NCBI GenBank assembly: GCA_027037535.1
Contig: JALVZQ010000007.1
Location: forward strand, 299,542-363,541
DNA length: 64,000 nucleotides
Reading direction: 5' to 3'
Source: Acidilobaceae archaeon
GTDB lineage: Archaea > Thermoproteota > Thermoprotei_A > Sulfolobales > Acidilobaceae
The position numbers and the translations under genes are program-made. The notes below the pieces were generated by a model, which made no database searches, was not told the DNA's origin, and saw only the letters and a program-made list of their open reading frames with translations. Within the stretch, counting starts at the first letter, position 1; each line of letters opens with the position of its first letter. Below are positions 14,193-64,000 of the stretch, piece by piece.

Positions 14193-14894
14193 TTAGTCTT
14201 CTATTTTGACCATTAGCGTGTCAGTTTTCTTAGCTGGTGGGGCTGATACTTTTTCCTGTACAGGCTTCTTTACGGGTACTCCTGCGCTTGTAGCTGCCTC
14301 TATTGTTTTTTCTAGTTTGTCTAAGACCTTCTTGGCGTCTTCTTTCTCATCCGCTAAACTATTCTTTAGCTTACGTAGATGGTTCATGCCCCTGGTGTAG
14401 TTTCTCTCGCTCACTTCTCCTGCAAAGTATGTCATTTGTAGAAGGGCTATTGCACTAGCTACGTGGAGACTCTCGTCGTCTATCTCGCTGATTCTCTCTC
14501 TTATTTCCTTCTTGGACTCCTCGGCCTTTATCTTGAGCTTCTTTATCTCGTCGTCTAGTTTCCTCCTAAGCTTGTCAACTACGTCTGCGGGGAGCTCGTT
14601 GCCTGATATGCTCTCTAGTGCCTTTCTTCTCCTGTAGGCTCTGTCTAGTGCCTCTATTAGCTGGACAGCCTTGTGTTTCCATACAGGTATAGCTATTACT
14701 TTACCGTCCTTCACTTTGATCCTGTCTCCTTTGATCCTCTCTATTCCCCTATCGGTTATCTTCACCTCTACGTACTCTACGAAGCCGTCGACGTTGCTGC
14801 TAAAGCTTACTAGTACTCCTATTACTCTACCATATTCATCAAAGACGTCTCCACCCACGTTGGGCGCTATCTCTTCTAGTCTAGGAGCCAACAC
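14193..14894 (-). CDS. cdvA: CdvA, membrane-binding cell-division scaffold
   Basis: 233 aa. N-terminal PRC-barrel-like domain (about residues 8-75: GGDVFDEYGRVIGVLVSFSSNVDGFVEYVEVK), a long charged coiled coil (about 78-200), and a Pro/Lys-rich tail (about 203-233, VPVKKPVQEKVSAPPAKK) that in Sulfolobus CdvA carries the ESCRT-III-recruiting segment. CdvA polymerises on the membrane at mid-cell and recruits ESCRT-III. Start is GTG 14894 (GTG TTG GCT CCT). Divergently arranged with a CdvB-family gene; no cdvC/Vps4 gene is in the window. Confidence 0.92.
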   Translation of the reverse strand: MLAPRLEEIAPNVGGDVFDEYGRVIGVLVSFSSNVDGFVEYVEVKITDRGIERIKGDRIKVKDGKVIAIPVWKHKAVQLIEALDRAYRRRKALESISGNELPADVVDKLRRKLDDEIKKLKIKAEESKKEIRERISEIDDESLHVASAIALLQMTYFAGEVSERNYTRGMNHLRKLKNSLADEKEDAKKVLDKLEKTIEAATSAGVPVKKPVQEKVSAPPAKKTDTLMVKIED

Positions 14895-14931
14895 TTAACA
14901 CCCATTAATGGTATTATCCGCGTATTCTACA

Positions 14932-14940
14932 GTATATAAT
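14932..14940 (-). promoter_or_regulatory. TATA box for cdvA in the divergent cdvA/cdvB region
   Basis: The minus strand reads ATTATATAC about 40 bases upstream of GTG 14894, well placed for a short-leader transcript. A second TATA-like element (GATTATACT, about 14952-14960) faces the CdvB-family gene. The two promoters share a 122-base gap, so co-regulation over the cell cycle is plausible. Confidence 0.45.
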
Positions 14941-15016
14941 GGATAAACCTCGATTATACTAAGGATTCCACCATTACTTCAAACCGCAACAAATACTATG
15001 GACTGGTGATATCTGG

Positions 15017-15694
15017 ATGACCAGTTATCTAGACTGGGCAAAGGGATGGAAGAACACTCCTAAGAGAAACACCATTGGCAAAAAGGTTAAGGAGCTTGTA
15101 AACCCGCCTGGACCCGTTCGACAGCAGATTATAAACGCGATATACAAGATAGCGAACCAGATAAACAAGCTAGACTACAGTCTAAACAAGCTACAGACAT
15201 ATGACCGCCAGCTATTCGAGAAGACAGTAAACAGCCTAGTAGAAGGAGACAAGACTAGAGCAGCAATGTTCGCAGGAGAGCTAGCAGAGATAAGGAAAAT
15301 GGCCAAGATAATCCTAACAGTTAGATACGCTCTCGAGAAGGTCAAGATAAGGCTAGAGACAGCCCTAATAGTAGGCGACATGCACGCAAACCTAGCACCA
15401 GCAGTAGTTGCACTTAAACAAGTGGCAGGATACCTGAAGGGCATGATGCCAGACGTATTCGCAGAGCTAATGGAGGTAGACGAGACACTACAGCTCAGCA
15501 TGATGCAGACAGTAGCCGCGGTACCAGACATGATGAGCACAGCGGTAGTAAACGAGGAAGCCCAGAAGATACTAAGAGACGCGAGCATCGTAGCAGAGCA
15601 GAGGATAAAGCAGCAGTTCCCAGAGATACCCAGCCTAGAGGGCGGTATCCCTACTGGAGCACAGCCAGGAGCCACTATTGAAGAGGCAAAATAA
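15017..15694 (+). CDS. cdvB: CdvB-family ESCRT-III / Snf7 protein
   Basis: 225 aa, basic N-terminus and acidic C-terminus like Snf7 proteins. N-terminal amphipathic segment with WKNTPKRNTIGKKVKELVNPPGPVRQQI, then a helical ESCRT-III core (about 35-190). The tail contains QQFPEIPSLEGG, which resembles the Pro-rich MIM2 Vps4-binding motif. No C-terminal winged helix as in full-length CdvB, so it may be a CdvB1/B2-type paralogue. Ribosome site GGTGAT at 15005 supports ATG 15017. It forms the membrane-constricting filaments with CdvA. Confidence 0.9.
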   Translation: MTSYLDWAKGWKNTPKRNTIGKKVKELVNPPGPVRQQIINAIYKIANQINKLDYSLNKLQTYDRQLFEKTVNSLVEGDKTRAAMFAGELAEIRKMAKIILTVRYALEKVKIRLETALIVGDMHANLAPAVVALKQVAGYLKGMMPDVFAELMEVDETLQLSMMQTVAAVPDMMSTAVVNEEAQKILRDASIVAEQRIKQQFPEIPSLEGGIPTGAQPGATIEEAK

Positions 15695-57063: not shown

Positions 57064-58023
57064 TTATTTATTTAATGTTCTTGCTCTAATAGTCTCTATA
57101 AGACGGAGCATTTCCCTGTATTCTGTTTCATCGAGCTCTGTGATTCTTGAAATAAGATATCTTAGCTTCATATAGTCTGATTGGAGCGCTGTTTCCCGCA
57201 TTATAGATTGGTACCTTGAAAGAACCCTCATTATGCTTGTGCTAGTGAGGCTGATGAAGCCTCCAAGCACCGCGATCCCGAAGAGCATGAGGACGACTCC
57301 AATCATTTTTCCAAGAGACGTCACTGGGACAAGATCTCCGTAACCTACTGTAGTGACTGTTGCCAGGCTCCACCAGAAAGCGTCGCCAAGAGTCTTGATC
57401 TGGGCCTCTGGACTACGGGCCTCAGCCATGAATGCCAGGACGCTTGTGAAGGATAGGCCTACGAGAAACACGATAAGGAGCTGTAGGATTCTTGCCTCTC
57501 TTATTATATCAACGACCATATGTAGATAAATGTTCCTCTTTCCTAGTACCTTGTACACTCTATAAACTCTGACTAACCTAAGTAGTCTCAGGAATGCTGC
57601 AAGCAATGGAATGTTAACCATTGCGGTCAGATAAGCAGGTGTCAGCGCTAGCAGCTCGTACCAGTATCTATTAAGGAAAACTTTCTTCTCCGGGGACATT
57701 GATAAGCGGTATGCGAATTCAAGGCCGAGGACTATACAGATGAGGAGATCCACTCTGTAAATGCTCTCTGCCTGAATACTTTCAGCGGGAAAAGTATAGT
57801 CTGCTATGAGAATGACTACGCTCAAAACTATTAGGCTGACCATTACTGTTTCCTGGAAGATGGTATCTCCTAATAGTTCGCGGCGCAGTTCCTCAGCCAT
57901 CTTCCTGCTAAATTCCCATGATTCCATAACCTTTTCACGGGCAACATTCTGCATAGGCCTGCTTCTGCCAGCTATCCTATGTAAGAGTTCCTTTATTTTC
58001 TCGACAAGAGAAAGTCCCGCCAA
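57064..58023 (-). CDS. KvAP-like voltage-gated potassium channel
   Basis: 319 aa. Six-helix Kv layout: S1 about 60-78, S2 about 91-107, S3 about 122-138, S4 with R146, R149, R152, R155 and K158 every third residue (FLRLLRLVRVYRVYK), S5 about 178-199, pore with TVGYGD at 225-230, S6 about 240-262, then a soluble C-terminal coil. Strongly resembles the archaeal KvAP channel. Opens on depolarisation to let K+ pass. Second K+ channel of the window; the RCK type is at 12 kb. Divergent from the signalling cluster. Confidence 0.95.
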   Translation of the reverse strand: MAGLSLVEKIKELLHRIAGRSRPMQNVAREKVMESWEFSRKMAEELRRELLGDTIFQETVMVSLIVLSVVILIADYTFPAESIQAESIYRVDLLICIVLGLEFAYRLSMSPEKKVFLNRYWYELLALTPAYLTAMVNIPLLAAFLRLLRLVRVYRVYKVLGKRNIYLHMVVDIIREARILQLLIVFLVGLSFTSVLAFMAEARSPEAQIKTLGDAFWWSLATVTTVGYGDLVPVTSLGKMIGVVLMLFGIAVLGGFISLTSTSIMRVLSRYQSIMRETALQSDYMKLRYLISRITELDETEYREMLRLIETIRARTLNK

Positions 58024-58273: not shown

Positions 58274-60232
58274 TTGGAGACTAGGAGTACATATCAAGAA
58301 TGTGTCGAAGGGCTAGTAAGCGATGCACGGAGGATATTTGAAAGCGAGGACCTCATAAGCCTAGAAAGCATGCCAGACTTCATCCTTTTAGACGATGCCA
58401 AGCGAGTTATGGATATAATGATACAATTCCGTAGACAATGTTTTCGAACCCTTAGCAAAGAAGAATTCGACGAGATCTCAAGTATTATTAACGGAGCCCT
58501 GCTCAAAATCGCAGCAGCTTTAAAAGAGAAGAACCTGGACAGCCCTGTAGCCCGCCAGATAATACAAATGTTCACTGAAGACGAGGTAAACCTCGTCCTA
58601 GAATTCGAAAAGTTCAACAAACTCGACCCAGAAATAACTCCTCCTGATAGGCTCGCGGACCTCCTAGTATCACGTACAGGCGAGATATATGATCTAGTAG
58701 CAGAAGCCGTGAGAAAACAGTACATCGATTTCTCATCGCTAATAAAAACCTGGACGACGCAAGGAAAGATCCGTGCTATGGTCAGCAAGGCCCTGCAGGC
58801 ACGGTACGAGAGGAGATTCAAGAATATTGTCGAAGCCGTGAAGAGGCTCCTCGACCAACAACCTGCATGGCTATTAAGGCTTTTCACAGACTACGAGCAG
58901 GCACTGCTGGAGAGTGCCGAGCTACGTGAGAGAATCGAGCTCGAGGTCCGAGACAAGATAATCAGAGACCTAGGGATTCCTGAACTAGAAAAGCAACTCG
59001 AAATTGTACAAGAAGAGAGAGAAAGACTTCTAGCCCGGGTAGAGGAGCTTAGCGCTGCGCTTGCCGCGAGGGAAGTAGAACGCGAGAAGCTCGAGCTTGA
59101 ACTCGACTATGTTAAACGAGATAAAGAAAGCCTATCGATCCAGGTCGATAACTTAAGAGAGAAGCTAGAAAGTATAGAGTCACAGCTTGAGAAGGCAAGG
59201 CTAGAGCTGGAAGAAAAACAGAGACAACTGGAACAGTTATCGAAAGAGTATGGAGAGGACAAAGCCGCAAAAGAAGCCCTAGAGGCAGAAGCGGAGAGGC
59301 TTAAGGCACGTATCAGTGAACTAGAGGATCTCCTAGAACAGTATGTGGCTGCTAGAGCGAGCCTAGAAATGGAGAAGATGCAGCTTGAATCTAAACTAGA
59401 AGAACTAGATACAGCTCTAAGAGGGGATTCCGAGGAGAGACCGGCGACAGTGGAGGAAGCCATAACATACGAGAGTATATTCATAGAAAGATTCAATTAC
59501 CACATGAATAGATTCCCATTAGTCCTATACGATCCCCTTAACCGAAAAGAGATACGGGTCAAGAAATGGGGACGCGCTAGTAAAGAAGATGGAATGCTCT
59601 ATCCCGAGAGCAAAGGACCATTAGGGAGATACTCGAAATACATACTCTATGAGGGCCTCATACGGAAAAAGAGGCATCTAGTCATCGAGGCATTAAGCTA
59701 TGTGAGGCCAGGTAAATATGAAGAGTCAGGCTATGACACTATGCCAATGCAGCTCAGTGAGGCCTTTAAACTTGTAACAAACAGGGCGAGCGAAGCAAGA
59801 GCCAACAACTACTACCATGTACTCCTGATAATGAGCCCTACCGGATATGCATCGAAGCTTAAAGAATACGTTTCAGGCACAGAGTTCCACAAGATGTTCC
59901 TTAGCAGTAACCTCACTCTAATACTATTTGACCCTGTTACAGGAGACGTCTACCATCATCCAGCTGATCCTATCGTAGAGAAGTTCGCCAGTGTATTAAA
60001 GCCGTTAACGCCTAGAGAAGAGCTCGAGAAGGCAATAATCAAGATAAAGGAGCTTAAAATAGAAGCATTAGCAAACTCTCCAGCAATGCCCCACTTCCTC
60101 CTGAGAGAAATAGCGGAGAAGACAGGGCTTCCTCTAAGAACCATAAGGGCCGCAGCAGAGAGGCTCCAGCGGGAGGGCTACGGCGTTGTAAAGGTGCACA
60201 AAGGCGACCTGGTATTTGTCTATAGGCAATAG
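58274..60232 (+). CDS. Coiled-coil protein with C-terminal winged helix, signalling-cluster gene 1
   Basis: 652 aa from TTG 58274. Helical N-terminal region (1-220), a long continuous coiled coil (about 225-395, EREKLELELDYVKRDKESLSIQ...), a mixed alpha/beta domain (about 405-575: IFIERFNYHMNRFPLVLYDPLNRKEIRVKKWG, RHLVIEALSYVRPG, HVLLIMSPTGYASKLKEYVSGTEFHKMF) and a winged helix (about 595-652, ALANSPAMPHFLLREIAEKTGLPLRTIRAAAERLQREGYGVVKV). No named family. Start of a five-gene same-strand block with FHA and kinase genes; a scaffold or DNA-linked output is possible. Confidence 0.8.
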   Translation: METRSTYQECVEGLVSDARRIFESEDLISLESMPDFILLDDAKRVMDIMIQFRRQCFRTLSKEEFDEISSIINGALLKIAAALKEKNLDSPVARQIIQMFTEDEVNLVLEFEKFNKLDPEITPPDRLADLLVSRTGEIYDLVAEAVRKQYIDFSSLIKTWTTQGKIRAMVSKALQARYERRFKNIVEAVKRLLDQQPAWLLRLFTDYEQALLESAELRERIELEVRDKIIRDLGIPELEKQLEIVQEERERLLARVEELSAALAAREVEREKLELELDYVKRDKESLSIQVDNLREKLESIESQLEKARLELEEKQRQLEQLSKEYGEDKAAKEALEAEAERLKARISELEDLLEQYVAARASLEMEKMQLESKLEELDTALRGDSEERPATVEEAITYESIFIERFNYHMNRFPLVLYDPLNRKEIRVKKWGRASKEDGMLYPESKGPLGRYSKYILYEGLIRKKRHLVIEALSYVRPGKYEESGYDTMPMQLSEAFKLVTNRASEARANNYYHVLLIMSPTGYASKLKEYVSGTEFHKMFLSSNLTLILFDPVTGDVYHHPADPIVEKFASVLKPLTPREELEKAIIKIKELKIEALANSPAMPHFLLREIAEKTGLPLRTIRAAAERLQREGYGVVKVHKGDLVFVYRQ

Positions 60233-60249
60233 GACTAGGGTGAATATCG

Positions 60250-60840
60250 ATGAGCCTGGACGATATAGATGTTAGGGGACTTGAGAAAGACGCTGGAGAT
60301 ATAGGAGAGATACTCGTGGAGACAGGGAGAAGACTAGTATCGGTTGTCGTCGGTATGCAGGCTGGTCCTGTTGCAGGAGCAGCAGTAGGAGCAGCACTAG
60401 CTGCAGCGTATCTAATATACAGGCGTAAAAAGAGGCTAGCGAGTAAAGGATTGACTGTGGAGGAAGCTAATATAATAGACCTCAGGATAAAGATTGATAA
60501 TCTCTATCAGAGACGCGAGGAACTAGAACAAGCAATATCAGCCGCAAAGAGGCCTTCTCAGAGAAGAATGCTAATGGACGCATTGCGGAATACAGATAGT
60601 ATGATTCGAGACCTCGAGGATATACTTGAGCTCTACAATACTCTTCTAGAGGCAAGACGAAGAATCGAGACCCTACTAGGCCAGAAAGCTGCTAAGGAAG
60701 TAGACAAAATCCTACAAAGGGTCGAAAAAGGAGAAGAGCCAGGAGAGCAAGTCTACAAGCTTCTCCAAAAAGTCGAGGAGAGAATCGATAAGACAGAGAC
60801 CGGCATCGCAAACCTTAAGCTCATACTTGGAGGTCCATAG
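60250..60840 (+). CDS. One-pass membrane coiled-coil protein, signalling-cluster gene 2
   Basis: 196 aa, ATG 60250, 17 bases after the preceding gene. One membrane helix (about residues 37-57, AGPVAGAAVGAALAAAYLIY, Gly/Ala-rich), followed by RRKKR and a long helical, coiled-coil part (about 70-196). No enzyme motif. Part of the FHA/kinase block; the helix and coil suggest a membrane partner of the soluble coiled-coil proteins. Confidence 0.75.
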   Translation: MSLDDIDVRGLEKDAGDIGEILVETGRRLVSVVVGMQAGPVAGAAVGAALAAAYLIYRRKKRLASKGLTVEEANIIDLRIKIDNLYQRREELEQAISAAKRPSQRRMLMDALRNTDSMIRDLEDILELYNTLLEARRRIETLLGQKAAKEVDKILQRVEKGEEPGEQVYKLLQKVEERIDKTETGIANLKLILGGP

Positions 60841-60921
60841 CCATGAGGCCCCATAGCGTAGTCAATAAGGGAAGGGGCGGAGTTTTCCGAAGAGATCTTA
60901 AGAATTGTTTCCCTTTGTCTG

Positions 60922-60943
60922 CAGGCCCTAAGGAAAGGGCCTG
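60922..60943 (+). promoter_or_regulatory. 8-bp hairpin between two cluster genes
   Basis: CAGGCCCT (60922-60929) and AGGGCCTG (60936-60943) with loop AAGGAA. It sits 80 bases after one stop and 40 before the next start, in the only wide gap (144 bases) of the block. It may end or process the upstream transcript; a small RNA is also possible. Confidence 0.4.
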
Positions 60944-60984
60944 GAGTACCCAGAAAATAATGTAGATAGAGGGGTGTGTAAGGA

Positions 60985-61506
60985 ATGGTGTTTGGATTCC
61001 TTAGAGGAAAGGGACGTGACTGGATCGATAAAGTAAAGATAGACGAGCTTGAAAAAGAGCGGATCAGGATAGAGGCAAGAGCTAACATGGTTCTACGACA
61101 GATTGAAAAGCTAGAAGCCGAAAAAGAGCGGCTCTACGAGTATGGTAAGAATGTCAGCGAAGGAGAGCAGATAATGCTTGCGGAGAAGATTAAGAATATT
61201 GAAGACGAGATAGCCGCCAAACAGCAAGAGTATAGCGACCTATTACGACAACGCCAAGCTCTCGTCAACCTGATAAGGCTGAAGAACTTCGAGGCACAAC
61301 TTAAGAGGAAAGGTATATGGGAGAAACTCAAGAAGGCAGATCCTGAGAAGCTACTTGATGTCTTAGCCGAGGTAAAGTTCGAGAAAGAGGCATTTGATAA
61401 GAGTGTAGAGGCTGTAGTCGCCGCCCTTGGCCCTGAGATCGGCGGGTACGCAGTGGATACTAGGACAAAGTCTATTATCAAAAAGATGAAGAAAGACGAA
61501 GAGTAA
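60985..61506 (+). CDS. Soluble coiled-coil protein, signalling-cluster gene 3
   Basis: 173 aa. Almost entirely charged helix: coiled coil at about residues 16-100 (KVKIDELEKERIRIEARANMVLRQIEKLEAEKERLYEYGK...) and a C-terminal helical part to residue 173. No recognised family. The short ESCRT-like helical architecture and neighbours (FHA, membrane coiled coil) suggest a scaffold or polymerising partner. GGTGTG ribosome-like site before ATG 60985. Confidence 0.72.
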   Translation: MVFGFLRGKGRDWIDKVKIDELEKERIRIEARANMVLRQIEKLEAEKERLYEYGKNVSEGEQIMLAEKIKNIEDEIAAKQQEYSDLLRQRQALVNLIRLKNFEAQLKRKGIWEKLKKADPEKLLDVLAEVKFEKEAFDKSVEAVVAALGPEIGGYAVDTRTKSIIKKMKKDEE

Positions 61507-61563
61507 ATTTAGCATCTAAGCGTTTTTCCCAAGTGCTATTATCAATTATAGGTGTAGGGACCC

Positions 61564-62484
61564 TTGAACATCCAAGCCCAGAGTCCAGGACAATACGTAC
61601 TAATTTGGACGACAGATACAGGAGTTAAACTAAGCCAGCCAATAACGTCAACCACGTGGATAGGAAGACCTGGAGGATTCAACATACCGGTCGAAGACCC
61701 ATACATGGTAATACTAGTACAAGGAAACAAGAACCATGTAAAAACAGGGATCCACGACCCCACGGTATCCAGAAAACACTCAGTACTGGAGCCTACGCTT
61801 GAAGGCATAAGAGTAATAGACACTGGATCGTCAGGAAAAGGCAGCACTAATGGAACCTACATAAACGAGGAAAGGATACCACCGGGAAGACAAGCAATAG
61901 CACAGCCGGGAGACACGATAAGAGTAGGTCTCTATACAGTTTTCAAAGTTGGATTAAAGGAGAAAACCAGGACAATAGAGCTCGCACGTCCAGGAGACCT
62001 TGTCACTGTAGACTCGAAACAAATAGACAAGCTACCAGAGGATCTCCTGAGGACCAGTATTCGCCTAGACAAGTCTAGATACTTGGTCTATATACCTAGA
62101 AACGTGGAATATACAAGGACGAGCTTCGACTCAACCAGCGATATACGTGTTAGGATAAAGCCAGAGGAGACTACGGAATTACAATATCAGAAAAGGATCC
62201 TCCAGAACATAATTATATATCTGAAAGATGTACAGTTGGATCTTAACAAAGATCCGCCAAGAGGACAGCAAGCTGCAACAAAGCTATACGCGCTCCTCAA
62301 AGTAAACGAGTATAGGATGATACTTTACGAAGTGCTAGGTAGAGAGAGTATCGATGATATCACTACTCTCTGCGACCTAGTGTTAAAAGGGCGTGCTGGA
62401 GAGTCACAGATTAAACGTCTAATAATAGAAGTTGACGCTCTTGCAAGAGCCATAGATCTTAAGATAAGAGCCTTGTCCGGTTAG
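61564..62484 (+). CDS. FHA-domain protein, signalling-cluster gene 4
   Basis: 306 aa from TTG 61564. FHA domain at about residues 25-128: G34-R35, S69-R70-K71-H72 and the S94-T95-N96-G97 turn are the conserved phosphothreonine-contact residues. The C-terminal half (about 140-306) is helical and not recognised. FHA domains read phosphothreonine made by Ser/Thr kinases; the kinase gene begins 11 bases after its stop, the strongest functional link in the window. Confidence 0.93.
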   Translation: MNIQAQSPGQYVLIWTTDTGVKLSQPITSTTWIGRPGGFNIPVEDPYMVILVQGNKNHVKTGIHDPTVSRKHSVLEPTLEGIRVIDTGSSGKGSTNGTYINEERIPPGRQAIAQPGDTIRVGLYTVFKVGLKEKTRTIELARPGDLVTVDSKQIDKLPEDLLRTSIRLDKSRYLVYIPRNVEYTRTSFDSTSDIRVRIKPEETTELQYQKRILQNIIIYLKDVQLDLNKDPPRGQQAATKLYALLKVNEYRMILYEVLGRESIDDITTLCDLVLKGRAGESQIKRLIIEVDALARAIDLKIRALSG

Positions 62485-62495
62485 GGTGATAGGTT

Positions 62496-64000
62496 ATGAA
62501 AGCTGGGGAAGTATTTTCATTATTATTGTTATTTATCATGATAAGTAGCATGCTTATAGCAAATGCTAATCTCAGCACTGAAGTATCTGTTAAATTCAAT
62601 GAAGTCGTAGATGAAACAAATCTAGGCGTAAGCTGGCAGTATGCGGAGGAATCTATAGCTCAAACATATTATGATGGCGAAAACATTTATATGGTCTCAC
62701 TTTTGCTTTACTCGAGTACATATACTGGCACTCTAGAGTTGTATATTGACAGCAACTATATGCTTAAAGGATTCTACTATGAATACTCGTCGGGGAACTA
62801 TATCCTAGTATACTTTACGCCCCCAGTACCTCTTAAACTCTCATCGATAGAATACGCATCCGGCGAGCAAATAACACAGACAACAACGATCGATATATAC
62901 GATGAAACAGGATTAATCTACAGTGACACCGTTCCATTACAGGTCACCTACAAGGGTCCCACATCATACTACGGATACAATTCATATCAAATAATAGTCG
63001 AATCATTCTACAATGGATCATGGAACACCGAGATAGAACTATACTATACACCGGACTACCAGGCAATAATAGGACTATACATACCGGGAATAATAAAAAT
63101 AAGTTCTCCACAAATAACACAGCCCCCAATGCAAGAAGAACAACCCATGAACACTGGAAACAGTGAAGAGATAAACTTCAGTGAAAACACTACCACGACC
63201 GAAGAAGAATCTTCACCGCTAGATTTACTGCTCGGACTACTAACATTAATACTCATAATAGGAGCCCCCGCATACTATATAGGCCGCAGAAGACGAGGAA
63301 AACACGATCTTATCAAGAAACCGATCCAGCCACTACACCGCCAAGAAAAGATACCGCAAGAAAACTACGGTAAAGAAAGTGTAACGGTTAGTAAACCAGC
63401 AATAGGTAAAGTCGCAGAGATATCTCTAGTAAAGCCACGTGTCAAGATAGAGCCTGGTCAACGGGCAGAGATCACAGTAAGATATAATTGTCCTGAGGGA
63501 TGTAGAATCACTGCACAGCGCCCTGCGGGCGTAGAATGGATACTGGTCAATCCTCCATATGTGGAAGCTCGAGGAGAAGGCAATGTAACATTTACATTAG
63601 AAGCACTACACAATGCATCGATAGGCAGCTATCCAGTCCACTTCAAGGTAGAGCCGGGTGATTCACTAGCAACAGCCTCTGTAGAAATCACACAGCCTAC
63701 TGGAGCTACTGGGCAAGCAGAAGAAATACTGCATATTTCATCCACATATATACCTGGCTATAAGATAATCCGCCCATTAGGAAGCGGTGGATTTAGCACC
63801 GTTTTCTTAGCTGAGAAAGATCAAGGAGGACTAGTAGCCATCAAAATACCAAAAATTGAGCTTGGAGCAACAATTTCAGGAAGCCTCTCGGAACAGTTTA
63901 GGAGGGAGGCGGAGACTTGGAGTAGGCTGGATCATGTAAATATTGTTAAGGTGTTGGATTATGGGATAAAGCCATTACCATATATAGTAATGGAGTATAT
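62496..64000 (+). CDS. Receptor-like Ser/Thr protein kinase, N-terminal part (cut by window edge)
   Basis: 501 residues visible, from ATG 62496; it has no stop before base 64000. Signal peptide (about 1-24), an outside domain with Asn glycosylation sequons (about 25-240), membrane helix at about 243-262 (LLLGLLTLILIIGAPAYYIG) followed by RRRRGK, a beta-rich cytoplasmic segment (about 300-410), and a kinase domain starting near 420: Gly-rich loop GSGGFSTVF (429-437), ATP lysine K450 in AIKIPK, alpha-C glutamate E471 and hinge IVMEYI. The catalytic loop and activation segment lie beyond the window. Adjacent FHA gene suggests it phosphorylates Thr recognised by that FHA. Confidence 0.92.
   Translation, partial: MKAGEVFSLLLLFIMISSMLIANANLSTEVSVKFNEVVDETNLGVSWQYAEESIAQTYYDGENIYMVSLLLYSSTYTGTLELYIDSNYMLKGFYYEYSSGNYILVYFTPPVPLKLSSIEYASGEQITQTTTIDIYDETGLIYSDTVPLQVTYKGPTSYYGYNSYQIIVESFYNGSWNTEIELYYTPDYQAIIGLYIPGIIKISSPQITQPPMQEEQPMNTGNSEEINFSENTTTTEEESSPLDLLLGLLTLILIIGAPAYYIGRRRRGKHDLIKKPIQPLHRQEKIPQENYGKESVTVSKPAIGKVAEISLVKPRVKIEPGQRAEITVRYNCPEGCRITAQRPAGVEWILVNPPYVEARGEGNVTFTLEALHNASIGSYPVHFKVEPGDSLATASVEITQPTGATGQAEEILHISSTYIPGYKIIRPLGSGGFSTVFLAEKDQGGLVAIKIPKIELGATISGSLSEQFRREAETWSRLDHVNIVKVLDYGIKPLPYIVMEY

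Follow-up and report, generated by a model that had tools for sequence, protein, structure and literature searches.

We analysed a 64,000-nucleotide stretch of an Acidilobaceae archaeon genome (the window) and report here on a block of five open reading frames (ORFs) at its positions 58274-64000, which encode three coiled-coil proteins, an FHA protein and a receptor kinase. We show, as far as comparison of protein sequences goes, that this block and its counterparts in other genomes (type B loci) share ancestry with archaeal loci that carry a Vps4-family ATPase. The block descends beside the Main kind of loci of the endosomal sorting complex required for transport (ESCRT) and probably works like part of it. 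Our favoured reading, to which we give about even credence, is that the block is a paralogous branch of the Main-type ESCRT locus, with no Vps4 found beside it, and that it likely provides a membrane-anchored coiled-coil scaffold switched by its own kinase and FHA protein. The ORF list confirmed the layout given in the initial annotation, with five genes on one strand and 11 bases between the FHA and kinase genes:

58274..60232, + strand: CC1, 652 amino acids (aa); predicted to consist of a helical domain, a coiled coil, an alpha/beta domain and a winged helix; Thermococcus locus L102 has a homologue
60250..60840, + strand: TMCC, 196 aa; one predicted membrane segment, then a helical hairpin-like coiled coil
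60985..61506, + strand: CC3, 173 aa; putative soluble helical hairpin that resembles ESCRT-III in gene position and shape only
61564..62484, + strand: FHA protein, 306 aa; FHA domain and helical C-terminal part
62496..64000, + strand: receptor kinase, 501 aa, open at the contig end; transmembrane segment, outside domain and kinase N-lobe

Type B loci were found in six genomes: that of the window (G000), G003, G004, G069, G092 and G096. The complete set of five genes, in the same order and on one strand, occurs in four of them (G000, G004, G069 and G092), and this recurrence is more than chance. G096 has CC1, TMCC, CC3 and FHA genes up to the contig end, and the block of G003 is split over two contigs, one with the start of CC1 and the other with CC3, FHA and kinase. 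The named relatives are metagenome genomes, labelled Desulfurococcales archaeon in three cases and otherwise Acidilobaceae archaeon or Thermosphaera sp.; the Thermosphaera genome carries a locus of a third kind (type C, described below).

Shared ancestry with Vps4-bearing loci

According to Makarova et al. 2024 (PMC10936438, here and below in the passages of it that we drew on), Main archaeal ESCRT loci contain Vps4, ESCRT-III, arCOG09748 and arCOG08177, often with a membrane kinase and a phosphatase. There, arCOG09748 is described as having an N-terminal helical domain, a coiled coil, a globular domain and a C-terminal winged helix likened to those of CdvB and Vps22, and arCOG08177 as Cas2-like plus TBP-like. 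The AlphaFold2 model of CC1 (29 sequences; predicted local distance difference test, pLDDT, 84) has helices up to residue 232, a coiled coil at 235-383, an alpha/beta domain at 393-571 and a winged helix at 581-652. Compared with the published description, and supported by the homologue in Thermococcus, CC1 appears to be an arCOG09748-type protein. The block had initially been proposed as possibly an undescribed system, which does not agree with this published architecture.

All five families of the block occur also in type A loci, which we define by a CC1 relative preceded by a gene of ~175 aa and which carry a Vps4-family ATPase. Type A loci were identified in ten genomes (G000, G002, G011, G016, G063, G081, G092, G094, G143 and G201), that of G016 being split over two contigs (L059 and L016). 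TMCC is present in 9/10 (not in G201), and CC3 also in 9/10, the contig of G081 ending before its place. A Vps4-family AAA gene was found in eight, with the contigs of G081 and G002 ending before its place, and CC3 lies directly upstream of Vps4 in all eight. Six of these eight Vps4-bearing stretches have a gene matching the FHA profile; the G092 contig ends soon after Vps4, and G201 showed no FHA-profile gene in about 20 kb. The ~175 aa family had one match in each of the ten type A genomes and none in type B loci. From its position and a match in Thermococcus it is probably arCOG08177-like; PDB searches of the family found no Cas2. Both types of locus are present in G092 and in G000, whose type A locus (L018) lies on contig C5.

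A similar association was found outside the class. A plasmid search with the type A Vps4 identified a locus on a Thermococcus peptonophilus plasmid (L102) whose first four genes are of 172, 607, 198 and 201 aa; genes for a Ser/Thr kinase, Vps4 and PP2C follow, and then one of 188 aa. Our profiles of the Thermoproteota families matched the ~175 aa gene with 121 bits, CC1 with 129, CC3 twice (125 and 93), the kinase with 265 and Vps4 with 358 (bits are quoted because the E-values refer to 23 proteins). The CC1 match spans positions 178-593 of the 651 of the model, and therefore includes the alpha/beta domain and not the coiled coil alone; the kinase match covers the kinase domain. The 188 aa gene matched Snf7 with E 4.2e-4, below cut-off. 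The coiled-coil proteins had been described as not being known partners, but this plasmid has the CC1 and CC3 families and the kinase beside Vps4. The location of this Main-type gene set (L102, 4584-12487) also indicates that such loci can sit outside the chromosome. In the haloarchaeal plasmid loci L103 and L104 the Vps4 profile alone matched, with no clear match of CC1 or FHA. A wider CC1 search of 398 genomes gave 32 with a match, and those outside the class with matches beyond the coiled coil were G449, G525, G369 and G359. A locus of G449 (L135, 5576-10341) has a Vps4-type AAA gene, an FHA-profile match and CC1 together, so that the association may predate the class; no CC3 or FHA match was found on the stretches examined of the other three.

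Within the class, CC1 matched in 52 of 229 genomes, strongly in 18 (best E 8e-39 or lower). The remaining 34 (best E 1.8e-9 to 8.5e-4) were dropped; among the rows listed for them, nearly all CC1 matches are confined to the coiled coil and a few to the winged helix. In the tree of CC1 (36 rows), the 12 type B rows are separated from all others by one branch (100/99), nine of the ten type A rows group with nine unclassified proteins (100/100), and type C (L054-L056) is placed next to type B (100/98). Type C loci L055 (4887-10838) and L056 (7788-15580) have CC1 with a neighbour of ~380 aa and a weakly GTPase-like P-loop protein, and additionally an FHA gene in L055 and a WD40-repeat protein in L056. 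We rejected CC1 as an SMC-like or Rad50-like protein, as the NCBIfam matches cover mainly the coiled coil and are far under cut-offs. The Pfam hints to SPAM, GAT, WWC1 and similar families, below cut-off and on coiled-coil or helical stretches, were also set aside.

The type A ATPase is distinct from CdvC. In a tree of 19 rows, the eight type A sequences, G449, Thermococcus and two haloarchaeal rows separate from the CdvC rows with support of 100/98. With the NCBIfam CdvC model, whose cut-off is 650, the CdvC rows of G000 and G004 score 528 and 525 bits, and those of type A L018 and Thermococcus 196 and 198. Pfam Vps4_C exceeds its cut-off in L061 and L102 and stays below it in L018. In the type A Vps4 of L018 (10527-11753), the profile match starts ahead of the first ATG, GTG or TTG of the frame.

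No Vps4-profile match was found in the stretches examined of the type B loci L015, L068 and L021, and the downstream flank of the window lies beyond the contig end. Searched in 12 genomes, the type A Vps4 profile matched with over 720 bits in G000 (once, on C5), G011, G016 and G092, and the best score in the other eight was 233. There was no such match in G004 (99% complete), which has a type B locus and CdvC, nor in the type C genomes G025, G114 and G151, nor in G002, where the contig of the type A locus stops short of Vps4. Because Vps4 was sought at the block and not found, we do not file the block as a member of the Main ESCRT loci.

The FHA protein, the receptor kinase and the winged helix

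The FHA domain of the block is over the Pfam cut-off (E 9.1e-11) and its GR, SRKH and NGT residues are intact. In a search of 40 relatives' genomes the protein was matched in five, including that of the window, and a protein search returned nine proteins, one of them again the window's own. The record of an identical protein (P0001) places it on a contig of up to 647,942 bases, so a longer assembly of the region may exist.

The kinase has a hydrophobic N-terminus, an outside domain, a predicted transmembrane segment at about residues 244-262, an inside linker and an N-lobe from residue 422. The window covers the final 64 kb of contig G000:C7, both ending at the same base; the kinase C-lobe is absent from the assembly because the contig ends inside the gene. 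Pfam Pkinase matches this cut piece at residues 422-501 (profile positions 1-79 of 263) with 30.1 bits against a cut-off of 31.7, and the same site scores 35.0, over cut-off, in the whole-genome search. Among the glycine loop, VAIK, HRD and DFG motifs, the N-lobe carries the first two, as GSGGFS and VAIKI. The kinases of G004, G069 and G092 have GSGGFS, VA[IL]K, HRDIKPEN, DFG and APEQ, and that of G003, whose contig ends inside the gene, has all of these motifs but APEQ. Thus the C-lobe catalytic motifs that the initial annotation anticipated are present in all four relatives examined, those of the window itself lying beyond the contig end, and with the FHA residues intact and the relatives' kinase motifs complete, its proposal of a conserved module of receptor kinase, FHA and coiled-coil proteins holds. 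An Ig-like linker in the kinase is hinted at by fn3_5 alone (E 0.018, below cut-off). The Pfam scan of the five block proteins gave no vWA family at E 1 (the rest of the genome was outside this search), and PF13672, the sole PP2C family searched, was found in none of six genomes.

The initial annotation also made its reading depend on the coiled-coil genes occurring with FHA and kinase genes; this link is common, with exceptions. L061 and L063 (about 20 kb each) have coiled-coil relatives and kinases with no FHA-profile match; L056 (about 20 kb) has coiled-coil relatives, no FHA-profile match and only an atypical kinase match; and in L054 (12 kb) coiled-coil relatives occur without FHA-profile or kinase match. 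In type A loci the FHA residues are intact in 4/6 copies and degenerate in L017 and L018. We had expected canonical kinases in type A, and this was not borne out: by simple patterns, HRD and DFG are never combined in the six kinases of L017, L018 (three), L057 and L058, and all three of L061 have HRD and DWG. The type A kinases are mixed, and we therefore claim no general rule. In L063 (10476-13313) a 945 aa kinase follows directly after CC1, and by eye its first residues resemble the start of CC3, perhaps reflecting a fusion.

A canonical kinase and FHA protein, in type B loci where no Vps4 was found, could also mean a phospho-relay and nothing else: kinase, FHA adaptor and coiled-coil scaffold would lead to gene regulation through the winged helix of CC1, and the ESCRT ancestry would carry no functional weight. 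The fold search, in which this winged helix matches many DNA-binding ones, would be in line with this, but it does not distinguish DNA from protein binding; in Pfam the winged helix is hinted at by HTH_24 (E 0.0043, below cut-off). We consider such a relay unlikely, as relatives of the same winged-helix protein stand in Vps4 loci in eight genomes and Thermococcus, and TMCC has a predicted membrane segment. The DNA-binding output suggested in the initial annotation is likewise not the best reading, because the published comparison of this C-terminal winged helix is with CdvB and Vps22 (PMC10936438).

The small coiled-coil proteins and the missing tail

TMCC has its predicted membrane segment at about residues 29-56, and a simple hydropathy scan finds one in 11/14 members of the family. 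It is weakly related to CC3. The type A copies of CC3 (n = 9) are 197-210 aa long and have a tail beyond a segment around VDxxTKEIL. Five aligned type B copies have 139-176 aa and end at or before this segment, and the G003 copy ends likewise. The C-terminal tail is thus present in 9/9 type A copies and in both Thermococcus copies, and absent from 6/6 type B copies. Its loss may be one event, because type B is one clade. In ESCRT-III the C-terminal tail binds MIT-domain proteins (PMC9477494, in the passages drawn on), and the joint absence of the CC3 tail and Vps4 fits a Vps4-free mode, without showing it.

The block could alternatively be one half of an ordinary Main-type ESCRT system whose genes are divided between two loci, with type B using the type A Vps4 or CdvC in trans, so that the absence in cis would mean little. 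G000 and G092 do carry both types, and CdvC is present in G000 and G004. This explanation seems improbable given that G004, at 99% completeness, has type B and no type A Vps4, and that the CC3 of type B is without the tail that is MIT-binding in ESCRT-III proteins (PMC9477494).

We do not claim CC3 as a proven ESCRT-III, and the sequence tests do not make it one. Thermococcus CC3b matches Snf7 along its length with E 0.64. As a positive control, the CdvB-type protein of the window finds CdvB2 and Vps24 in PDB.

Proposed mechanism

We infer that an outside stimulus would activate the receptor kinase, which would then phosphorylate threonines on a cargo protein or on CC1, TMCC or CC3. Binding of the phosphothreonine by the FHA protein would recruit CC1 and drive assembly of TMCC and CC3 at the membrane. 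An ATPase acting in trans, CdvC or the Vps4 of type A, could carry out disassembly, or neither might be used. The block would be a version of the handling of phosphorylated cargo that has been suggested for Main and FHA-type systems (PMC10936438). Such a scaffold would more likely serve in sorting, budding or repair than in division. A role in division is less likely because the genome has separate CdvA-, CdvB1/B2- and CdvC-like genes: divergent CdvA-like (-) and CdvB1/B2-like (+) genes are found at 14193-15694 of the window with no CdvC beside them, and the CdvC-type ATPase lies at G000:C5:151864. The CdvA, CdvB and CdvC orthologues are thus located elsewhere and not in the block (NCBIfam models best, below their cut-offs). 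A CdvB-type gene was found in all 118 genomes sampled from the class.

Several observations weigh against a paralogous ESCRT branch. The ESCRT cycle in cis is missing in type B, as no Vps4 was found there, and the window stops just past the kinase N-lobe, leaving the downstream neighbour outside the assembly. For CC3, none of 14 members matches Snf7 at E 0.1, hhalign against the CdvB profile gives 1.1-1.7% (reversed controls, 0.4-0.8%), the PDB profile search returns only coiled coils, and the fold matches are within noise for helical hairpins. In the simple scan 3/14 TMCC members show no membrane segment. TMCC and FHA are without counterpart in L102, and the FHA link is common and not universal, because some relative loci show no FHA-profile match. 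In the CC1 tree, the type A sequence of L061 has a long branch and is placed on the side of types B and C (93/94). Finally, phosphorylation and membrane work of the block are predictions from its genes.

We also considered that the block is a module for phage defence or conflict, triggered by its kinase. PADLOC matches the kinase to defence kinases (mad6, PD-T4-6) and the type A ATPase to IetA, but these matches are to kinase and AAA domains, widely shared by such families; TMCC, CC3, FHA and the ~175 aa protein had no PADLOC match, and CC1 matched over the coiled coil only. A defence function is therefore very improbable.

Returning to the paralogous ESCRT branch, a bolder version of it, which we regard as doubtful, is that the block is a Vps4-independent ESCRT-type membrane machine in the Thaumarchaeota, Aigarchaeota, Crenarchaeota and Korarchaeota (TACK), in which the ATPase and the polymer tail were lost together and the receptor kinase with an FHA reader took over on/off control.

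In the main text of PMC10936438, the TACK ancestor keeps ESCRT for division and loses most sorting parts, with TACK reduced to CdvABC. Our results contrast with this reduction, as one Thermoproteota class includes genomes with a Main-type locus (Vps4, kinase and FHA relatives), and some genomes of the class have a further, paralogous locus where Vps4 was not found. If the mechanism is true, the block would be a small archaeal case of a kinase-controlled membrane scaffold, and would bear on ESCRT under kinase control in eukaryotes. The idea is testable with few parts, because the window genome has one FHA domain by Pfam, that of the block, and four kinases over cut-off, the block's and three on contig C5, all at two loci; two further kinase matches are below cut-off.

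Neighbouring genes

One gene beside the block recurs with it, and its membership in the system is uncertain:

57064..58023, - strand: divergent ion-channel gene

It lies upstream of the block in all four type B genomes of family f1 (G000, G003, G004 and G069). It is not at the block in G092, and the G096 stretch covers only 583 bases upstream.

Comparison with known systems

In the literature that we searched, arCOG09748 and arCOG08177 appeared only in Makarova et al. 2024 and its preprint, and among the papers listed none described loci such as these in Desulfurococcales; they may be listed in the supplementary tables of PMC10936438.

The ArnA/ArnB system of Sulfolobales similarly has an archaeal FHA protein with phosphorylated partners (PMC10470591, in the passages drawn on). 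Unlike it, the block is without a vWA protein, and the neighbours of its FHA gene are coiled-coil proteins and a receptor kinase. The CdvABC division system has ESCRT ancestry in common with the block, but consists of separate genes and has an ATPase of a separate clade.

The Halo_FHA ESCRT clade has an FHA protein (arCOG13166), with FHA fused to a CdvA-like domain (PMC10936438). Both there and in the block an FHA protein stands beside ESCRT-type genes and kinases, whereas Vps4 and ESCRT-III belong to Halo_FHA. With the Main loci, type B shares an arCOG09748-like protein with a C-terminal winged helix, a membrane kinase and small helical genes. The type B stretches differ from these loci in being without Vps4, the ~175 aa (arCOG08177-like) gene or PP2C (searched by PF13672), and type B, which is from Thermoproteota, adds an FHA protein and a one-pass coiled-coil protein to the set.

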